Positions 8,647 to 28,508 of a stretch of 28,508 nucleotides of DNA are shown piece by piece; position 1 is the first letter of the stretch; each line of letters opens with the position of its first letter. The DNA is from a virus. Where the stretch lies: IMG/VR virus record IMGVR_UViG_3300035162_001484, positions 1-28,508 of that record, one strand, 5' to 3'. The position numbers were made by a program, and so were the translations under genes. The notes beneath the pieces are model-generated. The model worked only from the letters and a program-made list of their open reading frames with translations, did no database searches and was not told the origin of the DNA.

Positions 8647-10404
8647 ATGGCAGAAGAAGATACAAATACTCAGAATGTAGATGCTTATATGGGAGGACAA
8701 GTTACTAACCCCCTAATGCCTGCTCAAGGACAGTATACGCCTAAGACACAGACTATTGTACCAGGAGAAGAAATATCTCCAGAAGCATACGCCTTACAAG
8801 GAGAGCCTGCTCTCCCTATTTCTCAAGCTCAGACAGCATTAACTAATGCCCCTACTATCAGTCCCGCAGCTACAGTAGACCCAAGTCTACTTGGCACAAC
8901 TACGCCTGCTGCAACAGCACAAACTGGAACATTATCTACTGATGCACAAGTAACTGCAGCTCAGGGTACTTTATCTAATCAGGCACAAGCAGCAGCAGCT
9001 CAGGGAACTGCCCAAGGCCAAATTACACAGGCTGACACAGCATTAAGGGCAGTAACTGCACCAGAGGTTGTATCAGGAGCCGTAGCAGACACTGCTTTCT
9101 TAGGTGATACCGCAGCACAAACATCAGACTTTGTAAGTAATGTACAGGGTGCTTCAATGGAAGTCACCTCGGATATGACTGTGCAAGGACAATTAACTAG
9201 AATTGGGCAACAATTTGAAAATGGGCAAGTACCTCCATGGGCTGCAGGAATAATACGTAATGCTACTGCACAGATGGCACAAAGAGGTTTATCAGCGTCT
9301 TCAATGGCAGGTGCCGCAATAACACAAGCAGCGTTAGAAGCCTCTGTACCTATAGCAACTGCAGATGCTCAAACATATTATAATACAGCCATTAAAATAA
9401 TGGACAATCAACAGCAAGCTAACTTAACAAATACTCAGAATAATATGAATGTTTCATTAGCTAATACTTCTAATAGACAACAAACTGCTCTTGCAAAAAT
9501 GCAAGTTCAAGCCGCTCTAGCTGGACAGACACTCTCCAACCAACAGCAAGCAAATATCCTCAACGCTGAAAAGTACGCTGAAGCCGCTAACATGAACTTT
9601 ACCCAAGAGCAACAACGTGTGTTTGCCAATTCAAAGGCAGTAGAAACAATTAATCTACAAAATTTAAATAACACACAGGCTACTGCACTGAGTAATGCAG
9701 CAACTTTTGCTCAAATGGACATGTCAAACCTTAATAATAGGCAACAAGCCACGGTTTTAAATGCTCAGAACTTCTTACAGTTAGATATGGCTAATTTATC
9801 TAACTCTCAACAAACTGAAGTACTAAACCAACAATCCAAATTACAATCGTTGTTATCGGACCAAGCAGCACAAAATGCGGCACAAAACTTTAATGCCACT
9901 AGCCAAAATCAAGTAAATCAATTCTTTGAATCTTTGTCTGCTGACATTAATAAGTTTAACTCTGGGCAGTATAATGCACAGCAACAGTTTAATTCAGGAC
10001 AATCAAATGCACTTAATCAGTTTCGTGCCACAATGCAAAATTCAAGAGAGCAATTTAATACAACAAATGCAGTAGCTATAGCACAATCCAACGCTACATG
10101 GAGAAGGAATGTAAATACAGCTAATACTGCCTCTGTTAATGCGGCAAACCAATTAAATGCGGCAAACTATTTAAATATATCAAACACTGCACTAAACAAT
10201 GTTTGGCAACAGTATAGAGATGAAGCAGATTATGCATACACCTCTGCTGAAAATTCACAAGATAGGGCATTTAACTATGCCATGGCAATACTAGATGCAG
10301 ATGTAACCTCAGATTTGTACAATCAATACTTAGATGAAAAGTCATCTAATGCTATTGGGGGATTTATAGCATCACTAGGTATTGCAGCAATTAACGCATC
10401 ATAG
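8647..10404 (+). CDS. Large Gln/Asn/Ala-rich repeat virion protein
   Basis: This 585-residue protein has very few charged residues. Residues 1-160 are a low-complexity Ala/Thr/Gln region. Residues about 177-250 are a more ordinary helical domain (GQLTRIGQQFENGQVPPWAAGIIRNATAQM in two halves). Residues 254-407 are seven consecutive 22-residue repeats of the form N-x-Q-Q-x-x-x-L-N-A, ending N-L-S/N. Residues 413-522 are about ten 11-residue repeats with Q-F-N near the start. The last 60 residues are a helical, more acidic tail. The 11/22 period is typical of long helices with a continuous apolar face. By position ahead of the three giant proteins it is likely a virion or ejection-apparatus protein; no named homologue is recognised. 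Confidence 0.65.
   Translation: MAEEDTNTQNVDAYMGGQVTNPLMPAQGQYTPKTQTIVPGEEISPEAYALQGEPALPISQAQTALTNAPTISPAATVDPSLLGTTTPAATAQTGTLSTDAQVTAAQGTLSNQAQAAAAQGTAQGQITQADTALRAVTAPEVVSGAVADTAFLGDTAAQTSDFVSNVQGASMEVTSDMTVQGQLTRIGQQFENGQVPPWAAGIIRNATAQMAQRGLSASSMAGAAITQAALEASVPIATADAQTYYNTAIKIMDNQQQANLTNTQNNMNVSLANTSNRQQTALAKMQVQAALAGQTLSNQQQANILNAEKYAEAANMNFTQEQQRVFANSKAVETINLQNLNNTQATALSNAATFAQMDMSNLNNRQQATVLNAQNFLQLDMANLSNSQQTEVLNQQSKLQSLLSDQAAQNAAQNFNATSQNQVNQFFESLSADINKFNSGQYNAQQQFNSGQSNALNQFRATMQNSREQFNTTNAVAIAQSNATWRRNVNTANTASVNAANQLNAANYLNISNTALNNVWQQYRDEADYAYTSAENSQDRAFNYAMAILDADVTSDLYNQYLDEKSSNAIGGFIASLGIAAINAS
9406..9867 (+). repeat. Seven tandem 66-bp units coding 22-residue repeats
   Basis: Codons 254-407 divide without gaps into seven units of 22 residues starting NQQQ, NRQQ, NQQQ, QEQQ, NTQA, NRQQ and NSQQ. 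Most have N or A at position 9 and end in L-S or L-N. The DNA copies have diverged, so this is a protein-level repeat, not a recent DNA duplication. Confidence 0.85.
9883..10212 (+). repeat. Ten 11-residue repeats in the same protein
   Basis: Codons 413-522 fall into 11-residue units: QNFN..., NQFF..., NKFN..., QQFN..., NQFR..., EQFN..., then degenerate units AQSN, NTAN, NQLN and SNTA. Phe occurs at 415, 426, 437, 448, 459 and 470, exactly 11 apart. Confidence 0.8.
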
Positions 10405-15800: not shown

Positions 15801-16156
15801 GGCAGTTATTTACACTAGACCCTACTAAATTTGTAAGTGCGATGGCTAGAATAAGTGCACAGGGCAGAGTAGCAAAATTATTTGCTAATAAAGCATTTGC
15901 TGATGCTCTAACTGGAATGGCAACGCCTAAAAGCACAACTACATTAGGCAGAATAGCAGAAAGACAGAAACAATATTTCTTTGGTAAAGCCTCTCTTGCT
16001 AATATTGTTGCACAATTTGCTGTAAGCACCGCCTCAGAGTATAATAGGTCTGTTGATGCTGCCAGTAATCAAACACAAGAGATGTTAAATATGGATAATA
16101 GTAATAGTGGTGCCGCATCATACCTAAGGCAGATGGAACAGTTACAGGTACAATAA
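12860..16156 (+). CDS. Giant probable internal virion protein, 1098 aa
   Basis: This 1098-residue protein has AAAAGGAAA before the ATG. The N-terminal 110 residues are acidic and look disordered. Residues about 222-267 form a strongly hydrophobic stretch (LVSDVAAVGASFLTSAVVST and the following ITGPVSLGYSLYAY), long enough for one or two membrane spans. A basic helix with YIQEALGLNEKDAKEFGTL comes next. The remainder is helical and Lys/Glu/Ala-rich with no recognised domain. A hydrophobic hairpin within a giant virion protein fits a channel-forming ejection protein that crosses the cell envelope. This is inference from size, position and hydropathy. No lysozyme or transglycosylase motif was found. 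Confidence 0.55.
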   Translation: MSGSQSYLKQLGIDVNEEETAESNNAVAYVPSKQAVDTAAEADFTTGPELIESPIEKGVGDPAIAEQAAMVKAEAVAAMRADADVSLGEASIAKPPKDSSLQSEPYILPLSETGGFDSSRFKRINELAAEQDGTFDYFNKAASDKIGYEGQLLLGFSDNLSQVSSGIEKIVGAGNYKVFEDKKADFLVNRFYVSVKDEEGNWSPFANPTQDALDMAAKYFPMVGYELVSDVAAVGASFLTSAVVSTLTPFLSYITGPVSLGYSLYAYNKGAERGRQYIQEALGLNEKDAKEFGTLFEEVYKLALDPKAYSAIKKLFGGDSKISSDELKQEIRGIAGGAFAFIPALFDKLAIMSSRIRESASIKDTEIFESSLKAERFVDKAPGLGGKDANLVSTMLPQRTMNKKIQRLAGIIDQTSGKISAVLRDQMISVRNYSERFKGQFGKGDFNSFKSAMGGIYKTIAGIKSGKVTINPEKLGINLREVEDLFFSFRMDESRGMYNNIFTKLGDSSFNLENLRKIIVKREVNTIEPGSKQTAGVAIEPKVGPAVTGEPRVDSIISNLYQLGVQSGGTRVLSKDSIAKAVEQLKANHPDYAKYMDGNKIVIRTPAELLHNYATLLGGMSKGIFARDTGTAVNPQLASFTQSLRNILLDTIANPIPNKKVGKLNLTKELNDAKAFYKQTFDTMGSLPQVEARIASKTGGEEALLPDFLGITEASKGAKGRTKVLLDNIRFQENYLRENLKGGALKSAPLGKLQQAFADVISFKMSGAGSASLTKTQSASDVKAYIGSYTKEERLRLGITPEIEKRIYKDLDLISKVDEIQVFQRYKLGDRIDNAELKDVFASAILKADDLGFKQDIDVMLKVINRLPSKAKKEGLRNLQGGLVDYIFSKESGVLVQITEKNAAFAQIGDITIDPTALSKVIDKFEKAGVFKNILTDKVKNSAGKEFTQLEILRGMENYTGVIKQAGADAGSALSGAQLIGQLFTLDPTKFVSAMARISAQGRVAKLFANKAFADALTGMATPKSTTTLGRIAERQKQYFFGKASLANIVAQFAVSTASEYNRSVDAASNQTQEMLNMDNSNSGAASYLRQMEQLQVQ

Positions 16157-19100
16157 TGGCAAAGGCAAATAAGTCGGGAGACTTTAAACCCATAAATACA
16201 CAAACATATGGACAAAGAACTGATTTAGATGAGCTTATTCCTGAAGTAGAGACAGAAAAATTAAGAGGTTTAGCACTTTTACAAGATAGAGGATACGCTA
16301 GAGGTGTACGAAAGGATAATCGTACTGCAGATGAACTAAAACTAACTGAAAAGGACGTAAAAGGCTTTGTTAAACGACAGAAAAAACTACAGGAAGAAAA
16401 TAAAAAGTTAAATTCTGGTCTACTAAACCTTACAATGACAAAAGCTATAATAGATGATATATACAGTCCGGTAATTTCCACAGATTATAAAGAGCCTCTT
16501 CCTATATTTCCTGGGATATATCGCCAAAGCACCACAGCCATAAAAGATAAATTAATAGCTGAAAAATTAGACATAGCACAGCAACAAGAAAGATACGATA
16601 AGTCCCTATCTAAGAATCCCGCCCGAAATTTAGGAATGATGAGTCCCCGGGTAGTTATAGACAATGCAGATATTATGGGAGACTTCAAACCTATAGAGAT
16701 ATCAGGATTGTCTGGCCCTGTTGTACCCGTACCCGATAAGCCCACAGATATAAACAAGTTACCTAGCTTTAGTTTTACAGGAGCCAGTGAGATGGGGCCC
16801 TCTTCAGGAGGTCTTCTTCGTTGGATGGGGCTAGTGGGCATGACAAGTCCTCTCCTAGCTCCTAAGAACGCCCTAGGCTCGGGATTTAGCCTCAAAAGTC
16901 TTATGGGTAAGGCTGATGAGTATGTAACTCAAGAATTATTAACTAGCATAAAGAAAAACTCTTCTTCTGATTCTCGAAAAGTTCTTGATGCAGTTATAGA
17001 AGAGTCTAGCATAAACATAGATAATCTGCCTGTAAACCAATCACAGGTTGATGCTTCCCTAGCTAATAAAACTATTACTGGTACAAACTTAATAAAAGTT
17101 AAAGATTTAAAAGTTTCTAAATCGCTACAAGATATGGCAATAACTGAAACTTCGGGAGCTAAAGACAGTGAAAACGTCTACTATAATTTGGATAGAGTTA
17201 ATGTAGGTGATGGATATGAAGGTAGCATCACTGGTACGGCACGTGATAAACTTCCGTACAATAAAGACGGCACAACTAGTTTTACGGTCACTGATTCTAT
17301 AGAGGGAATTGGATTAGAAGCTAAAGGAGTTACTTCTCCCTACTCAAAAAAACACTATCTGCATTCGGACGTACTAACAGACAGACCCGAAGAACTTAAT
17401 AATATGGGAGCTTTGTATGGTCATAAAAGACAGTTCATAAAAAAAGAAATTCCTGCCGGGCACCCCACTCTTGAGCAGGGGCCTGCTATAGTAAAAGAGT
17501 TATTTGCAGATATGAAACTCCCATCTCCCTTTAGACCTGGGTATTCGTATGAGGAAAGGACTGCTGAAATACTTGCAAATAACACCTCAGTTATCCGAGA
17601 CGGTAACCCTCTTGTTATACATACATCTAATATATATAACAATATAACAGAGGCAAAGAATACAGGTATGCTTTCTCCTGGAGGACCTGTAACTCTGCAA
17701 AGATACACTATTAATGATATAGAAGATAAAAGTAGGTCTGTATATGACACAAGCGGACAATTAAATAATTACAATAGTGATAATATTATTACAGAATTTC
17801 CTATGGAGTTATTTAGCTCGGAAAAATTTACCCCAGAACAGTTATTAAACAAAGCAGGCCCCGGGTGGAGAAAATGGGATAAAAATAATGTTACTACCGC
17901 TGATAAAGATTTAGCAATAGAATTTATGAATAAACGTACTCAATATAATAAGTATACCGCTATGCTAGATTTTAAAATAGAGATGCAAAAAATAGATGCA
18001 TTATTAAAATTAGTAGAAGTTCCAAATATACTCAAGACTATTCAATCTGAAGGCCCCTTAAAAGGAAAAATAAATATACTTGATAAAAGTAATAGAATGA
18101 CTATTGATGATGTTGTTGAGCATTTTGACAACACCCCCGTAGTAAGAGATGTTAACAAACCTGGGGGGATGTTAATGGATGGTAAACACGCTCAATTATC
18201 AGAATATATTAGAATATATGCAAATACAGCGATAGAGAATAGCTTTTCTTATGATGCCACCACTATAAGAGAGGCACTAGGAGATGCATCATACTTTTCT
18301 CTATCAAAAGTTGATGAGACCACAGGGGATTGGAATAATAATTTTATTGAACCCTTTGATTCATCCACAGTACCTCACACAACGTATAATGGTCTGCATA
18401 GTCTTGCTGATGAACTTGACCCAAATTATAAAAATAAGTATGGTGCCCCCATTACAGTGGCCGCTCTAAAAAAATACGTTACAACAATAGCAAGAATTAA
18501 TAAGCAAAAAGAAATAGTAGCTTTTGTGCCATCGGGACCAGCAGGTCCGGGTACAATGTCAACATACTTCCGTAATCTTGAGGACATACGAAATATAGAT
18601 GAGGGGGTTGGCACGTTCTTTGACCAACTAAGCATTACACCCGGAGTTTTTGAAGCATTACAAAAATGGGAAGATGGGGGAGGCCAAAGACATGCACAAT
18701 GGAAATCCAACTCAGTTAGATTCAAAAGCGATAAAGAATTAAATGAGTTAAAAGAAATAGAATTGGGGTTTGGTCCGGGAAGAAGAATATTAACAATAAG
18801 TGAAGAGCAGTATGATACTTTTAAAAATACAGCGTTTTCTTCCGTGGAAGACATGGAACTTGGAATGCAGTTACGTAGAGAGGGAGAAGTCCCTGGAGCT
18901 GGAGAAAGGGAAGAACTTGACCCGGAGCTTAGTGATGCAATTGGATATAACCTCGAAGAGGGGGAGGATTTTTTTATATCTCCCTTACTAAGACCAATAG
19001 GTACAAATATTCAGTCTGCATCAGAGAAAGCATTTACGTATCTTAGAAGACACCCTGCAACATTAGTAGAAATGACAACAGTTCACAATATAAAACAAGC

Positions 19101-20379
19101 ATTACAAAATTCTAATTTAGATGCTATACGTTTTAATACTTTTGCCACCAGTGTAAAAGCCCAAGACTGGGCCCAGGGCCTCAGAGGTTCCGAATATTAT
19201 AACATGATGAATAGGCATGTTAACGACGCCCCGGTAGAAGTTAAGTCCTTAGTAAATTTGTTGTTTAATCCTGAGGGACCTATGCATACACAGTTTTACA
19301 AGTTTGATACCGGGCGTGAGTTTAAGTTAGTAAGAGACGATAAGAAAAAGGATATAGATGATGAAATAGCAGATTTGATTGATAATGAGTTTATAGAGGA
19401 ACAGACGTATGATAAAAGTTCTAGTAATCTGATTACATTATTACAGGAATCAACAGGTAGCCCCTCATATAATGAAATGTTTAATCAAGGTTCATCAGGG
19501 ATGTCACAACCTCAGGTGTATGGGGCTATAGTAAACCGGGAGACTTCAAACCTTCCAGACTTTGCACCGACTCCTTCCATACAATACGGTGTGTATAAAT
19601 ACACTAAGGTGCTTAGAAGACGATTAATGGATATTATGGAGAATGAACTTAAAGCTTTTGAATTTGGTGCTAGTGATACTACTCCATTCTTAACTGCCTT
19701 AAAAGGCTATAGTAATACACCTGTTTCTACTAGAGAAGATTACACTAGGATAATGTATGAAAATGGACTTTCTGCAGATGCCCATAAATTTATTACCTCT
19801 TTTGAAGATAGGATTACTAAAATAGGTAAACCCATTAACATAAATATAATGAAAAAGGCAGAAACAGTAGAAGCACTAGAGATGATGAATAATGCTATGA
19901 TGTTTATGAGAAAGTTTTATGTACGTAGTATAGAAGCTGGCATGACTACAGAAGCTTTAACTGATTATGGATATAGTGTGCAGAATAAGACTAGTCCATT
20001 ATTTTTAGGGCATTTTGGACCTTTAAAAGATGAAAATTTAACCGAGACTATTAAAACGAGAAAAACCTCAGATAAACCAGATGCAAAAATGTATAATATG
20101 GCATTTGCTAATCAATATGATAAGTACAAACTTGAGGCGTTTAAGAAATTAGGTCTTAACTATAAAATAGTTAATGATTTTAAAGATAGGCCTGCGAATA
20201 CAGCTGATAATGTATCTTTTTATGAAGTAGAACTACCAAAGAACCCAAAAGAAAGGGAGGCATTACTCAATAAAATAAAGAAGCATGAAGTGCAACTATT
20301 TTCTCAAATAATGCCTGTACCTAAGTTCAATCAAGTGAATGAAGAAGAAGATAACACAAGAGCAATGGGTGCAACCTAA
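16156..20379 (+). CDS. Giant probable internal virion protein, 1407 aa
   Basis: This 1407-residue protein is the largest in the window and last in the plus-strand unit; its ATG shares a base with the preceding TAA. Residues about 60-95 are a Lys/Glu coiled-coil-like helix (GFVKRQKKLQEENKKLN). Residues about 215-240 contain Gly/Leu/Met-rich hydrophobic sequence (LLRWMGLVGMTSPLLAP). The middle is mixed alpha/beta with many aromatic residues. The C terminus is helical and charged, ending EEEDNTRAMGAT. No family is recognised and no catalytic motif is seen. Size and position parallel the largest ejected protein of T7-type phages (gp16, about 1300 residues). Its TAA overlaps by 4 bases the TAG of the opposing gene. 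Confidence 0.55.
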   Translation: MAKANKSGDFKPINTQTYGQRTDLDELIPEVETEKLRGLALLQDRGYARGVRKDNRTADELKLTEKDVKGFVKRQKKLQEENKKLNSGLLNLTMTKAIIDDIYSPVISTDYKEPLPIFPGIYRQSTTAIKDKLIAEKLDIAQQQERYDKSLSKNPARNLGMMSPRVVIDNADIMGDFKPIEISGLSGPVVPVPDKPTDINKLPSFSFTGASEMGPSSGGLLRWMGLVGMTSPLLAPKNALGSGFSLKSLMGKADEYVTQELLTSIKKNSSSDSRKVLDAVIEESSINIDNLPVNQSQVDASLANKTITGTNLIKVKDLKVSKSLQDMAITETSGAKDSENVYYNLDRVNVGDGYEGSITGTARDKLPYNKDGTTSFTVTDSIEGIGLEAKGVTSPYSKKHYLHSDVLTDRPEELNNMGALYGHKRQFIKKEIPAGHPTLEQGPAIVKELFADMKLPSPFRPGYSYEERTAEILANNTSVIRDGNPLVIHTSNIYNNITEAKNTGMLSPGGPVTLQRYTINDIEDKSRSVYDTSGQLNNYNSDNIITEFPMELFSSEKFTPEQLLNKAGPGWRKWDKNNVTTADKDLAIEFMNKRTQYNKYTAMLDFKIEMQKIDALLKLVEVPNILKTIQSEGPLKGKINILDKSNRMTIDDVVEHFDNTPVVRDVNKPGGMLMDGKHAQLSEYIRIYANTAIENSFSYDATTIREALGDASYFSLSKVDETTGDWNNNFIEPFDSSTVPHTTYNGLHSLADELDPNYKNKYGAPITVAALKKYVTTIARINKQKEIVAFVPSGPAGPGTMSTYFRNLEDIRNIDEGVGTFFDQLSITPGVFEALQKWEDGGGQRHAQWKSNSVRFKSDKELNELKEIELGFGPGRRILTISEEQYDTFKNTAFSSVEDMELGMQLRREGEVPGAGEREELDPELSDAIGYNLEEGEDFFISPLLRPIGTNIQSASEKAFTYLRRHPATLVEMTTVHNIKQALQNSNLDAIRFNTFATSVKAQDWAQGLRGSEYYNMMNRHVNDAPVEVKSLVNLLFNPEGPMHTQFYKFDTGREFKLVRDDKKKDIDDEIADLIDNEFIEEQTYDKSSSNLITLLQESTGSPSYNEMFNQGSSGMSQPQVYGAIVNRETSNLPDFAPTPSIQYGVYKYTKVLRRRLMDIMENELKAFEFGASDTTPFLTALKGYSNTPVSTREDYTRIMYENGLSADAHKFITSFEDRITKIGKPININIMKKAETVEALEMMNNAMMFMRKFYVRSIEAGMTTEALTDYGYSVQNKTSPLFLGHFGPLKDENLTETIKTRKTSDKPDAKMYNMAFANQYDKYKLEAFKKLGLNYKIVNDFKDRPANTADNVSFYEVELPKNPKEREALLNKIKKHEVQLFSQIMPVPKFNQVNEEEDNTRAMGAT

Positions 20380-24855: not shown

Positions 24856-25726
24856 TGTCACGCCACTCGTCTGTGATGTGAGTGTACCAGAACCATCTTG
24901 GGTTGCGGCTTTTACTAGGGAGTTGTTTTCTAAATTCGAGGTCTTTCCAGCAGTCCTTTTTAAAAGAGCAATAGCTGCATTCAATCCCAAGGGTTTTGTT
25001 TCCTGTGGGCTTTTTGTAGAAAACTTCCTCGACATCCGTAAAGCATCTCTTAAAAGGCTTTCCATTAGATAATGATTTAAAAGTGTTGAGTATCTTAGCA
25101 TGAACTTCCTCCTTTTCCTTATCACTGTTTCGGGCTTCTGCTACTGCAATTTCTCCAGTAGACTTATTTAAAGCAATCCAGCCTTTGAATGGTTTTTTAC
25201 TAGCCATACCATAGCCATGTCCTTGTGTAACATATCCAAAAGCGTCTTGTTCTTTTATCTTATCGTAAGCATCGTCGGGCTTAAACTTATTTTCAAAAGC
25301 ATAAGGTGAGGCAGTTTTTATATCATATATGCCATCATCTAATTCAATGTCAAATTCGCCATGTATAGAAGTTTCTTTACTTATAGGCAAGGAAACTTTT
25401 CCGTGTGTCTGCTTTATATCAATACCCGATGCTCGTATAACAGCAATCATAAGAGCTTCTAATACATCTCCCATTGCCATACGCATTTTAAAATCATAAG
25501 TTGGGGTTTCTTCTTTGGCTCCCATTGCTTGCATTTGTAATTGGCATAAAGGCTTACCTGCATTACTCATACGTAATCTAAACTCTCCTCGATTTTCATT
25601 GAATTGTTTATTTAATGCTTGTTTACAATTATCTGCAAACTCGTTCAGAATGTGAGGAGGCATTTCTGCCTCCCCCTTAACCGCTCTTGAAAGGAACGAA
25701 ACTATAGCGGCTTGTTTTGTATTCAT
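24839..25726 (-). CDS. Fe-S PD-(D/E)XK exonuclease (Cas4/AddB-like)
   Basis: This 295-residue nuclease probably degrades host DNA or processes replication ends, the role of the gp6 exonuclease in T7. Motif I is in MGDVLEALM (D87, E90). The metal residues are D126 (GEFDIEL) and D135-x-K137 (YDIKTAS), and Q168-x3-Y172 (TQGHGY) is the third motif. Cysteines flank the nuclease core as in AddB and Cas4: C61 upstream, and C250, C253 and C259 downstream with spacing C-x2-C-x5-C. This is the arrangement that holds a 4Fe-4S cluster. Start overlaps the SSB gene stop as ATGA. The exonuclease direction cannot be read from sequence. Confidence 0.8.
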   Translation of the reverse strand: MNTKQAAIVSFLSRAVKGEAEMPPHILNEFADNCKQALNKQFNENRGEFRLRMSNAGKPLCQLQMQAMGAKEETPTYDFKMRMAMGDVLEALMIAVIRASGIDIKQTHGKVSLPISKETSIHGEFDIELDDGIYDIKTASPYAFENKFKPDDAYDKIKEQDAFGYVTQGHGYGMASKKPFKGWIALNKSTGEIAVAEARNSDKEKEEVHAKILNTFKSLSNGKPFKRCFTDVEEVFYKKPTGNKTLGIECSYCSFKKDCWKDLEFRKQLPSKSRNPRWFWYTHITDEWRDNDNSI

Positions 25727-26583
25727 CCTACTAATGACTCCGGTAAGTCGTCATTTAGAAGGTCGTTAGCAGTCACAGTGATAGGCTCTTGGTCAACTAT
25801 TTTTCCTTGAGTACGTAAGGAATTGTCGTATTTCTTAATAACCGCACCGTTCTCATCATTTATGTAATCCATAAAGTAAGCCAAAGTATCTTGGTCTCCA
25901 GGCGTAAAATCAACTAACTCGGGAGAGTTATTAAATTTACCTACATAATAGACGAGTCCACCATTCTTCTTCTTATCCAAAGAAGCTCTTAATTTATAAA
26001 AGATAAAGGGCTTTTTCTGTGCAGAAAGTGAATCAATTGGAACAGAGATAGGCATAAAATTACTACCTCTTGCTCTCCACAGAATAGGTACGTCCACCGC
26101 ATCTTCTACTTTAGCACCCTTCTCATCAACTGCGTCAATGAAAGTGGCTTTGCCAAACAACATACGGAAACATTTAATGTTCTTCTGTTGAAGGGCTTTC
26201 TCAGTTGACAGTGCTTCTCTTTGACTGGCAGGAACAGAACCACATCTAAAAGTACCTAGTATATCAGGTATTTCTGTCTGTGGGTACAGGTTCTTAGCCA
26301 TAACAGATTTATTGACCATCTCATTTACTTCAGCATCATAATGCAAATATTGATACCTTTGTACAAAGACTTGAAAGTCAATTTCTTTTGCATACACCAT
26401 CTTATCGGGTAGTGATACAGACCAAGAACCAGCAGGCAAAGTATTACCTGAATCATCTTCATGGTCTCTATTTATTTTTAGATAGAACATATTATTAGCT
26501 GACCCTTGTGGCTCATCTTGTCCTATTATTTTAGCGATGTCTTCAAAGTTCGTTGTTGAATTTACAACTGGTAATGATTCCAT
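25723..26583 (-). CDS. Probable single-stranded DNA-binding protein
   Basis: This 286-residue protein lies between exonuclease and DNA polymerase, where marine podoviruses often carry their ssDNA-binding protein. It is beta-rich in the middle, with aromatic residues suited to base stacking (FQVFVQRYQYLHY, IFYKLRASL, GLVYYVGKF). It ends in an acidic hydrophilic tail (ANDLLNDDLPESLVG), as SSB proteins and T7 gp2.5 do for partner contacts. It is larger than T7 gp2.5 (232 residues) and I see no clear sequence match, so the call rests on order, composition and tail. AAGGAG stands 10 bases before the ATG and a sigma70-like promoter is just upstream. Confidence 0.5.
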   Translation of the reverse strand: MESLPVVNSTTNFEDIAKIIGQDEPQGSANNMFYLKINRDHEDDSGNTLPAGSWSVSLPDKMVYAKEIDFQVFVQRYQYLHYDAEVNEMVNKSVMAKNLYPQTEIPDILGTFRCGSVPASQREALSTEKALQQKNIKCFRMLFGKATFIDAVDEKGAKVEDAVDVPILWRARGSNFMPISVPIDSLSAQKKPFIFYKLRASLDKKKNGGLVYYVGKFNNSPELVDFTPGDQDTLAYFMDYINDENGAVIKKYDNSLRTQGKIVDQEPITVTANDLLNDDLPESLVG

Positions 26584-26617: not shown

Positions 26618-26646
26618 TTTATATTACATTAGGAAAGGTTAGTCAA
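26618..26646 (-). promoter_or_regulatory. Sigma70-like promoter between polymerase and SSB genes
   Basis: On the minus strand TTGACT (complement of 26641-26646) and TATAAA (complement of 26618-26623) are 17 bases apart, 10 of 12 matches to consensus. The -35 box lies inside the last codons of the polymerase gene and the -10 box in the 45-bp gap. It would add transcription of SSB, exonuclease, RNR and the remaining genes. Sequence-only inference. Confidence 0.55.
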
Positions 26647-28508
26647 GTGATATTCTTGCATATTTAACCAATCTTTTCCTATCTCTAAGTCCACAGCCAA
26701 AGGAACTTTCCAACTAACATTGTATTGCTCCTCAAACTGCTTATCTACTTTAGTCATAGCATCATATGTCATACGTGCTACCTCTTCTTCTTCCCCAGGA
26801 AATACATCTAGCACTATTGAGTCATGGACTGTATTAATAATCTTAGATGTAATTCCCTTACGCACAATTTCATTTTGAAGATGAATAAGTGCGAGCGGGA
26901 CAACGCAACCACCCGCCAAACCTTGAACAGGGTAGTTTTTAATGGACGGTGCTCCTGATGCATTCCCATTGGCAAGTCTTCTAGTATCCGGAAAAGCAAA
27001 CTGCTGACCAGTATACAAGGTAACAACGCCAGTCGAAATAGCCTCAACTTGTAAAGCTTCATGCCATTCTCCTAGTCTTGGGTACTTTTCAACAAAAGCC
27101 TTATAATATTCCATTTCATTTGGTGTACCTGTTGTACCACCATATAAGGGTTTGAATGTGTGTGCTTTTGCTTCAGTACGTTCTTCTTTAGTTATATCTG
27201 CTTCCGGCTTGTTAAATATAATTGAAGCAGTATATTTGTGAACATCACTTCCACTTAAGATGTCCTTAATCATAGTCTCGTCACCACACAACTGTGCAGC
27301 AATTCTAAATTCTAACTGACTATAATCTGCTTGTAAGATACAGCCATTATCAAACCTAGATACAACTACAGCTCTCACAGGAAACGTGGAACCTCTCGGC
27401 TGATTCTGAAAGTTAGGGTCAGAAGAAGACAGACGAGTAGTTCTGGTAACACATTGATTGAACCGTGGATGTAGTACTCCATTATTTCTTGTATTGCGGG
27501 AGATACCACCGACAAAGCTAGATAAATACACATCGACTGCATTTAATCTAATAGTAGACTTGAGGAACTCTTGTGCTTTGGTATTACCATTATATGTTGC
27601 AATTCCTTGTAGTCTTACTAATGTAGCTTTGTCAGTAGCAAATCCGTTAGCAGACACATCCATAACATCACGAGGATTTAGGGTGAGCCCACCAATCTTA
27701 GGAAGAGGTATATAAATGTAGCCTGCACCAAAACATGCAGGGCATTTGCTAGACTTCTTCCACTTGTTTCCGTCCTTCTTAGTTTTGAAGAACTCTCCGC
27801 GACCATGGCATTTATGACAATGTTGTGCTTGAGTCTTGTGAACACGAGTTGTCATTGATTTGACCAGTGACGCAAATTTAGAGACAGACATATAAGGTCT
27901 TCTTAAAGGTTTACCCTTTTCGTTAAGACCTGTGTTAAATGTTTCTGCCCAATTCTTTTTATTAATAATCTTACGAGAGTAAATCAATTGACTTACTTGC
28001 TCGGGAGATGCAAAGTTTACATGTGTATCCCCCATAACATCACGGCATGTCTCCTCCATTTTTATACGAAGTTGTGCCTGCTCTATCTCATACTCTTTAC
28101 GAACTTTCTCTAAAGTTACAAAGTCAATCTTAATTCCGTTACGCTCAATTACAGCCAAGGTAGGCAGAAACTTATTCATCAATTCTAAATGTTTACGCAT
28201 CGGTGAATTATGTGAATTACGGAAAATCTCTTCTTGTGCTTGGTGCAACTGCCTAGTGGATTCAATGTCAGCTATACCATACTCTTCTACAGTTTCCATA
28301 GGCATAGCATCAAAACCTGTTCCTGCCTTAAGATAATCGTGAGTTAAGTCAGACTTCTTCATAGCTACGTTTCTACGTATGCATGAATCTGCCAAACTAA
28401 GGCCCCACTTCTGTTCTCTAAGTAATACGTATTCTCCAATCATTGTGTCATACACACCACCAGTATAGTCAAACCCACTTTCCCATAACCACATTAAGTC
28501 AAACTTTA
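26629..28508 (-). CDS. Family A DNA polymerase with zinc-finger-like thumb insertion, 5' partial
   Basis: This is the replicative polymerase; the frame stays open to the right edge (KFDL precedes the first in-window Met), so the N terminus is missing. Numbering from ATG 28494, the 3'-5' exonuclease domain shows FDLMWL (Exo II, Asp two residues before M1) and Y72-x3-D76 (Exo III). Polymerase motifs are RLSSSDPNFQNQP (354-366), motif A with D390-YSQLEFR, motif B with R439, K443, F447 and Y451, and motif C VHDS (H557, D558). F447 corresponds to E. coli Phe762. Between VNFASPEQ (159-166) and the FATDKATL segment (285-292) sits CHKCHGRG...CPACFGAG (C226, C229, C251, C254), a likely zinc site. The T7 thioredoxin-binding loop is at a different place and not seen. 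Stop lies 45 bp before the SSB gene. Confidence 0.93.
   Translation of the reverse strand, partial: KFDLMWLWESGFDYTGGVYDTMIGEYVLLREQKWGLSLADSCIRRNVAMKKSDLTHDYLKAGTGFDAMPMETVEEYGIADIESTRQLHQAQEEIFRNSHNSPMRKHLELMNKFLPTLAVIERNGIKIDFVTLEKVRKEYEIEQAQLRIKMEETCRDVMGDTHVNFASPEQVSQLIYSRKIINKKNWAETFNTGLNEKGKPLRRPYMSVSKFASLVKSMTTRVHKTQAQHCHKCHGRGEFFKTKKDGNKWKKSSKCPACFGAGYIYIPLPKIGGLTLNPRDVMDVSANGFATDKATLVRLQGIATYNGNTKAQEFLKSTIRLNAVDVYLSSFVGGISRNTRNNGVLHPRFNQCVTRTTRLSSSDPNFQNQPRGSTFPVRAVVVSRFDNGCILQADYSQLEFRIAAQLCGDETMIKDILSGSDVHKYTASIIFNKPEADITKEERTEAKAHTFKPLYGGTTGTPNEMEYYKAFVEKYPRLGEWHEALQVEAISTGVVTLYTGQQFAFPDTRRLANGNASGAPSIKNYPVQGLAGGCVVPLALIHLQNEIVRKGITSKIINTVHDSIVLDVFPGEEEEVARMTYDAMTKVDKQFEEQYNVSWKVPLAVDLEIGKDWLNMQEYHLTNLS
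27721..27819 (-). other. DnaJ-type CXXCXGXG pair inside the polymerase
   Basis: Two CXXCXGXG elements (polymerase residues 226-233 and 251-258) are separated by 17 mostly Lys/Phe/Trp residues. The four cysteines would coordinate one zinc ion, as the DnaJ repeats do. It is unusual in a DNA polymerase thumb and is predicted from spacing alone. Confidence 0.75.

Follow-up and report, generated by a model that had tools for sequence, protein, structure and literature searches.

HMO-2011-type phages are dominant and widespread in the ocean (PMC9038755), and more than 2000 sequences of the type have been collected (PMC9038755, PMC6918029, PMC8528129). Their signature is a partial DnaJ central domain, comprising two CXXCXGXG motifs, at the junction of the exonuclease and polymerase parts of the DNA polymerase (PMC9038755, PMC8528129), and the gene in the RefSeq HMO-2011 record already bears PF00684 (DnaJ_CXXCXGXG). 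The module described here is already a published hallmark of HMO-2011-type DNA polymerases; the details we add are its site at the tip of the thumb, the size of the insert and its basic surface. The original prediction had mentioned similar inserts in marine viral polymerases, which was right, but it underrated how well known they are. In the HMO-2011-type literature that we searched, the motifs owe their zinc-binding label to analogy, and functional tests of the module were not found.

The T7 gene 5 polymerase (gp5) is likewise a replicative phage enzyme of family A with a large basic insertion in its thumb, and this thumb-tip insertion binds host thioredoxin. Thumb insertions contribute to processivity in the polymerases of T7 and human mitochondria, and those of plant organellar and other eukaryotic family A polymerases have likewise been proposed to contact the duplex or to support processivity (PMC7699545). 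No zinc knuckle is reported for the plant organellar and other eukaryotic insertions, which are unrelated in lineage to the one studied here.

A family A DNA polymerase of the HMO-2011 type

We analysed IMG/VR record IMGVR_UViG_3300035162_001484 over a stretch of 28,508 bases, hereafter the window, in which a minus-strand reading frame encodes the following protein:

26629..28506, minus strand: family A DNA polymerase with 3'-5' exonuclease and polymerase domains (PF00476, E = 3.8e-57; phrog_17, E = 4.9e-82)

The PF00476 match was well over its cut-off, while the exonuclease family PF01612 matched at E = 8.5e-4, under its cut-off, with the window copy and its missing N-terminus as the query; together the two domains make this a family A polymerase with a 3'-5' exonuclease domain. 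The 5' end of polA lies beyond the window edge, leaving ~84 N-terminal residues outside. A complete polymerase of 709 aa from the first Met (L002:1732-3858) is 100% identical to the window copy across their overlap, and its numbering is used below as full-protein numbering. A predicted model of the whole enzyme matched Bst Pol I with a Z of 34.8 (rmsd 2.8 over 546 residues). In the O helix (full-protein 527-541; approximately 26890-26940 in the window, numbered on L002), the R-x3-K-x3-F-G-x2-Y motif reads RTEAKAHTFKPLYGG; across the HMO-2011-type group Phe762 is retained and the next Gly is replaced by Lys or Ala.

The best phage matches to the window polymerase were all HMO-2011-type isolates, at 38–46% identity over almost the full length, and relatives of the window subgroup in IMG/VR reached 67–88% identity. 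HMO-2011 (a Puniceispirillum phage), Roseobacter phages CRP-1, CRP-2 and CRP-3 and Pelagibacter phage HTVC033P have the same domain order and the same motif site as the window enzyme, from which the isolates differ in sequence divergence only. As in that group, the window protein carries two CXXCXGXG motifs between its exonuclease and polymerase domains. In a palm-domain tree, it grouped with the HMO-2011-type isolates and all module-bearing enzymes fell into one group, with weak branch support (0.26); a single gain of the module is the simplest reading of this tree, not a proven one. Elsewhere in the window, a protein of the structural region (8647-10404) has matches in HMO-2011-type genomes and in those of other pelagiphages and roseophages.

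An insertion placed at the tip of the thumb

We collected 120 full-length homologues, of which 74 diverse rows were aligned. When the 74-homologue profile was compared with three other phage PolAs, the alignment stopped at residues 260-262 and restarted at 368-377 (GFxTDKxT), and against E. coli Pol I the same profile broke at 262. In these alignments the Pol I segment LSSTKQLQTILFEK directly precedes the insert, and the next thumb segment directly follows it:

27652..27978, minus strand: thumb-tip insertion of ~109 residues (full-protein ~261-369), from the SPEQ helix to GFATDKATL, placed by profile alignment

The region spans 96–125 residues in the 74 homologues. Its equivalent has ~12 residues in E. 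coli Pol I (GIKPLKKTPGG, from 595; site ~594-606); in the three other phage PolAs the profile alignment leaves ~19–26, or at most ~45 with the poorly aligned stretch of MEP401 included. In Klenow nomenclature, thumb helices H1 and H2 flank this site; as judged from the alignments, the insertion occupies the H1-H2 turn at the thumb tip.

Direct alignment to T7 (HHalign, MAFFT) was ambiguous in the thumb, and E. coli Pol I therefore served as the intermediate through which the two insertions were placed relative to one another. In T7 gp5 the loop, which is devoid of a zinc knuckle, precedes the FNPSSR helix, whereas the window insert lies after the equivalent SPEQ helix. Conversely, T7 gp5 has no insert at the H1-H2 turn, and the window polymerase has none between thumb helices H and H1, before its FNPSSR-like segment, where the T7 loop is found. 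The original prediction had located the module between the SPEQ helix and the FATDKATL segment, had described the corresponding turn of cellular Pol I as short, and had held the site to be distinct from that of the thioredoxin-binding loop; the alignments agree with it on each point.

Several other phages show a different arrangement of PolA. In MEP401, an Alcaligenes phage and a Manatee Spring podovirus, the enzyme is encoded by two genes, split between the thumb and motif A; MEP401 and the Manatee Spring podovirus have a small gene between the halves, annotated as R67 dihydrofolate reductase in the latter.

Conservation of the paired cysteine motifs

The core of the insertion is formed by two short motifs:

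27721..27819, minus strand: two CXXCXGXG motifs (CHKCHGRG and CPACFGAG), predicted to form a single zinc site (Cys in 74/74 homologues; PF00684; DnaJ-type folds)

The first Cys codon of CHKCHGRG is at 27819-27817 and CPACFGAG terminates at 27723-27721, so that the motif coordinates proposed earlier are exact. Counted from the first in-window codon the cysteines are C230/C233 and C255/C258, and in the 709-aa protein they are C314, C317, C339 and C342; the C226, C229, C251 and C254 of the original prediction are the same residues, numbered from the first in-window Met. The interval it gave for the insertion holds as the Cys core but is too small for the whole.

All four motif cysteines were invariant (74/74 aligned homologues), whereas the other cysteines of the polymerase were unconserved, and both CXXC pairs were kept in 120/120 collected full-length homologues. 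Close homologues without the cysteines had been named beforehand as a result that would tell against the module; every close homologue has all four. PF00684 matched at E = 1.4e-4 with the whole protein and at 3e-6 with the insert alone, both under the Pfam curated cut-off, and was matched by 74/74 of the diverse homologues at E ≤ 0.01; these E-values, together with the matches in every homologue, exclude a chance origin of the motifs. Among the remaining positions, G330 and G346 were invariant, G319 and G321 showed almost no variation (74-row alignment), K/R308 was conserved, and K325, K327 and K338 were basic in 91–96% of homologues. The rest of the insert was largely variable, leaving Cys and Gly as its best conserved positions.

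Such a pattern, with Cys and Gly held and much of the surrounding sequence free to vary, is what one might see if the zinc site were a mere structural staple of a long loop, having no DNA-binding or partner-binding role of its own. Yet the hairpin lysines are conserved too, and a functionless insert of 109 residues should be lost, which has happened in 0/120 homologues; we consider a pure staple unlikely.

Predicted fold and relation to DnaJ

The whole enzyme was modelled with AlphaFold2 from the 74-row alignment, which contains IMG/VR rows only. Mean pLDDT was 92 (87–91 in the module), and the strands at 307-313 and 347-355 bound the following element:

27694..27840, minus strand: predicted beta ribbon with a pair of zinc knuckles (full-protein 307-355; AlphaFold2)

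Folded alone, the insert reached a pLDDT of 89 overall and of 93–96 in its zinc part, with four predicted strands (43-49, 58-62, 68-74 and 83-91) and the CXXC pairs at 50-53 and 75-78 (insert numbering). Both pairs are placed at the two turns of one predicted ribbon, an arrangement that gives no sign of the wide separation of cysteines named in advance as counting against the module. The closest solved folds to the insert were those of DNAJA2, Anti-TRAP, BSD2, DnaJ, lambda Q and the UvrA zinc knuckles. Scores were weak (Foldseek E 0.1; Z 2.5–4.1) because the module is short, a ~45-residue element, and the set of matches was homogeneous. By sequence profile, the best PDB match was 1exk (E. coli DnaJ; E = 0.0033). 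With DnaJ cysteine-rich domains, Anti-TRAP, BSD2 and lambda Q as its best profile and fold matches, the description of the module as DnaJ-like and zinc-binding in type is supported, and from the model we infer that the four cysteines bind one zinc, as half of a DnaJ cysteine-rich domain would.

The cysteine-rich domain of DnaJ/Hsp40 proteins (E. coli DnaJ 1exk, Ydj1, DNAJA2) presents the same CXXCXGXG knuckles on antiparallel ribbons, but those proteins have four repeats, two zinc sites and a J domain, whereas the window module has two repeats and one predicted site and lies inside a polymerase. Only two repeats were present in all homologues. The 625 in-window residues of the polymerase matched no J-domain family at E ≤ 10, and NCBIfam, searched with the complete 709-aa protein, returned the DnaJ zinc region only, with no J domain. 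The sequence match to DnaJ cysteine-rich domains, and the role of DnaJ in lambda replication that HMO-2011-type papers bring up (PMC9038755), could suggest that the module acts as DnaJ does, by binding unfolded protein or recruiting the host Hsp70 machinery. Chaperone activity is nonetheless most improbable with 2/4 repeats and no J domain found, and this small fold also serves unrelated roles in Anti-TRAP, BSD2, UvrA and lambda Q. The lambda antiterminator Q (7ubj/7ubl), matched by both profile and fold, is likewise a phage protein with a small DnaJ-like zinc knuckle inside another domain, although it is a transcription antiterminator and the domain hosting its knuckle is unrelated to polymerase.

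Matches to the insert model in BFVD included many free-standing phage proteins of 46–100 aa, of unassigned function, with a DnaJ-like knuckle fold. Such proteins are a possible source of the polymerase module.

Distribution of the module

A tblastn search of 50,697 phage records with the 111-aa insert matched HMO-2011-type isolates only, and therefore no transfer into another polymerase lineage was seen; a search of IMG/VR with a single module sequence likewise returned close polA relatives only. In cellular genome bins, PolAs ~40% identical to the window protein carried the module wherever the region was present, and the remaining PolAs (≤37% identity, mostly short matches) lacked the cysteines. 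In the relatives examined outside the HMO-2011-type group the cysteines were absent, as was most of the insert. Within these collections, the module is restricted to the HMO-2011-type group. A portion of the published account of the Thermus phage G20c polymerase describes a new motif and does not mention a thumb zinc insert.

Identical HMO-type contigs were found in two different MAGs (L158/L159 and L162/L163; Flavobacteriales and Neomarinimicrobiota), with a further HMO-type copy (L160) in a MAG named Euryarchaeota. Binning contamination is likely.

The phages of this group infect hosts of the SAR11, SAR116 and Roseobacter lineages, which bears on whether the module could bind a host processivity factor in place of thioredoxin, by analogy with the T7 insertion. 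We regard this as improbable: site and sequence are unlike the thioredoxin loop, no candidate partner was found in this analysis, and the cysteines are invariant over a wide host range, so that a self-contained function fits better.

A basic surface and its possible role at the thumb tip

Among all 19-residue stretches of the polymerase (mean over 74 homologues), a hairpin of the insert is the most basic, and another segment of the insert comes second:

27745..27801, minus strand: basic hairpin linking one motif to the other (RGEFFKTKKDGNKWKKSSK, full-protein 320-338), net +5.35
27865..27921, minus strand: second basic stretch, preceding the ribbon (EKGKPLRRPYMSVSKFASL, full-protein 280-298), net +4.86

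These stretches are, at the level of sequence, the main evidence for contact with either DNA phosphates or an acidic partner. In one subclade (L111, L116, L121, L131, L134 and L043, the last being CRP-738), the inter-motif hairpin carries a 12-residue basic extension (e.g. KQVTRQKNGKKYRIQG).

We give about an even chance to the reading that the module is a zinc-stiffened, lysine-rich extension of the thumb that holds duplex DNA and raises processivity. Truncation of the E. coli thumb lowers processivity (Minnick et al. 1996, cited by PMC10061031). This effect, the site, the conserved basic surface and the thumb insertions of the T7 and mitochondrial polymerases are the grounds for a clamp. The E. 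coli thumb deletion reportedly covers residues ~590-613, spanning the H1-H2 turn site. In the polymerase of this HMO-2011-type marine podovirus, the pair of CXXCXGXG knuckles in the ~109-residue insertion at the H1-H2 turn would bind one zinc and so stiffen a four-strand, lysine-rich beta ribbon. As the turn is the thumb tip beside the new duplex, the ribbon likely lies over the DNA; it would extend across the newly made duplex and grip its phosphates, and the enzyme would stay on DNA longer, with higher processivity. We infer zinc binding, DNA contact and the processivity effect alike. The site adjoins the one at which T7 recruits a host protein, and from this neighbouring position the ribbon alone would take over part of the role that the thioredoxin loop has in T7. 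With the module located at the thumb tip, the catalogue label 'partial DnaJ domain' becomes a testable statement on how HMO-2011-type phages stay on DNA, and polymerase engineers may find in it a model for a compact processivity element.

An acidic-tailed neighbour of polA

A ribbon of this charge at the thumb tip would be as well suited to an acidic protein as to DNA, and the gene adjoining polA encodes a candidate partner:

25723..26583, minus strand: 286-aa protein whose C terminus forms an acidic tail; candidate single-strand binding protein (SSB) and candidate partner (polA-adjacent homologues with negative tails)

An acidic C-terminal tail is a feature of single-strand binding proteins. 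Across HMO-2011-type loci (L018-L166) the family has ~290 aa and a tail that is variable but nearly always acidic, with a mean net charge of -6.0 in the last 25 residues as against -0.26 per 25 in the body (n = 109 homologues). The protein had no match to a known SSB or any other family among Pfam, PHROG, NCBIfam and PDB profiles, and we treat it as a candidate new SSB family. Its HMO-2011 homologue is annotated FliD_C from a weak hit.

The module may accordingly be a docking platform for a phage replication protein, most likely this acidic-tailed neighbour, in the manner of the T7 thumb loop, to which the acidic tails of gp2.5 and gp4 dock; we hold this to be the main alternative to the clamp, though a doubtful one. 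Precedents are at hand in T7, where the C-terminal tail of the SSB (gp2.5) binds the thumb loop (PMC7699545) and the helicase (gp4) tails bind basic patches (PMC12593628), and in a mobile-element PolA-SSB pair whose model seats the SSB at the tip of the thumb (PMC10061031); the acidity of the tail in nearly all 109 neighbours points the same way. Against docking stand the neighbour's lack of homology to known SSBs and the DnaB-like helicases of the group, in which an acidic tail was absent, so that the T7 helicase-tail contact is not reproduced. A combined reading, in which a zinc-stabilised, DnaJ-derived clamp replaced the host-thioredoxin strategy, gripping the duplex and also docking the acidic tail of the adjacent new SSB, is rather unlikely.

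Covariation of module and tail charge was also considered. The raw anticorrelation (rho = -0.51) was not significant after correction for kinship by independent contrasts (p = 0.08); this too weighs against docking, and the correlation was dropped as evidence.

Beyond these replication genes, a 1407-aa protein encoded at 16156-20379 on the plus strand had no tblastn match in the 50,697 phage records, whereas the structural-region genes that flank it have relatives. The structural (plus-strand) and replication (minus-strand) genes converge at 20376-20379, where their stop codons overlap by ~4 bases.
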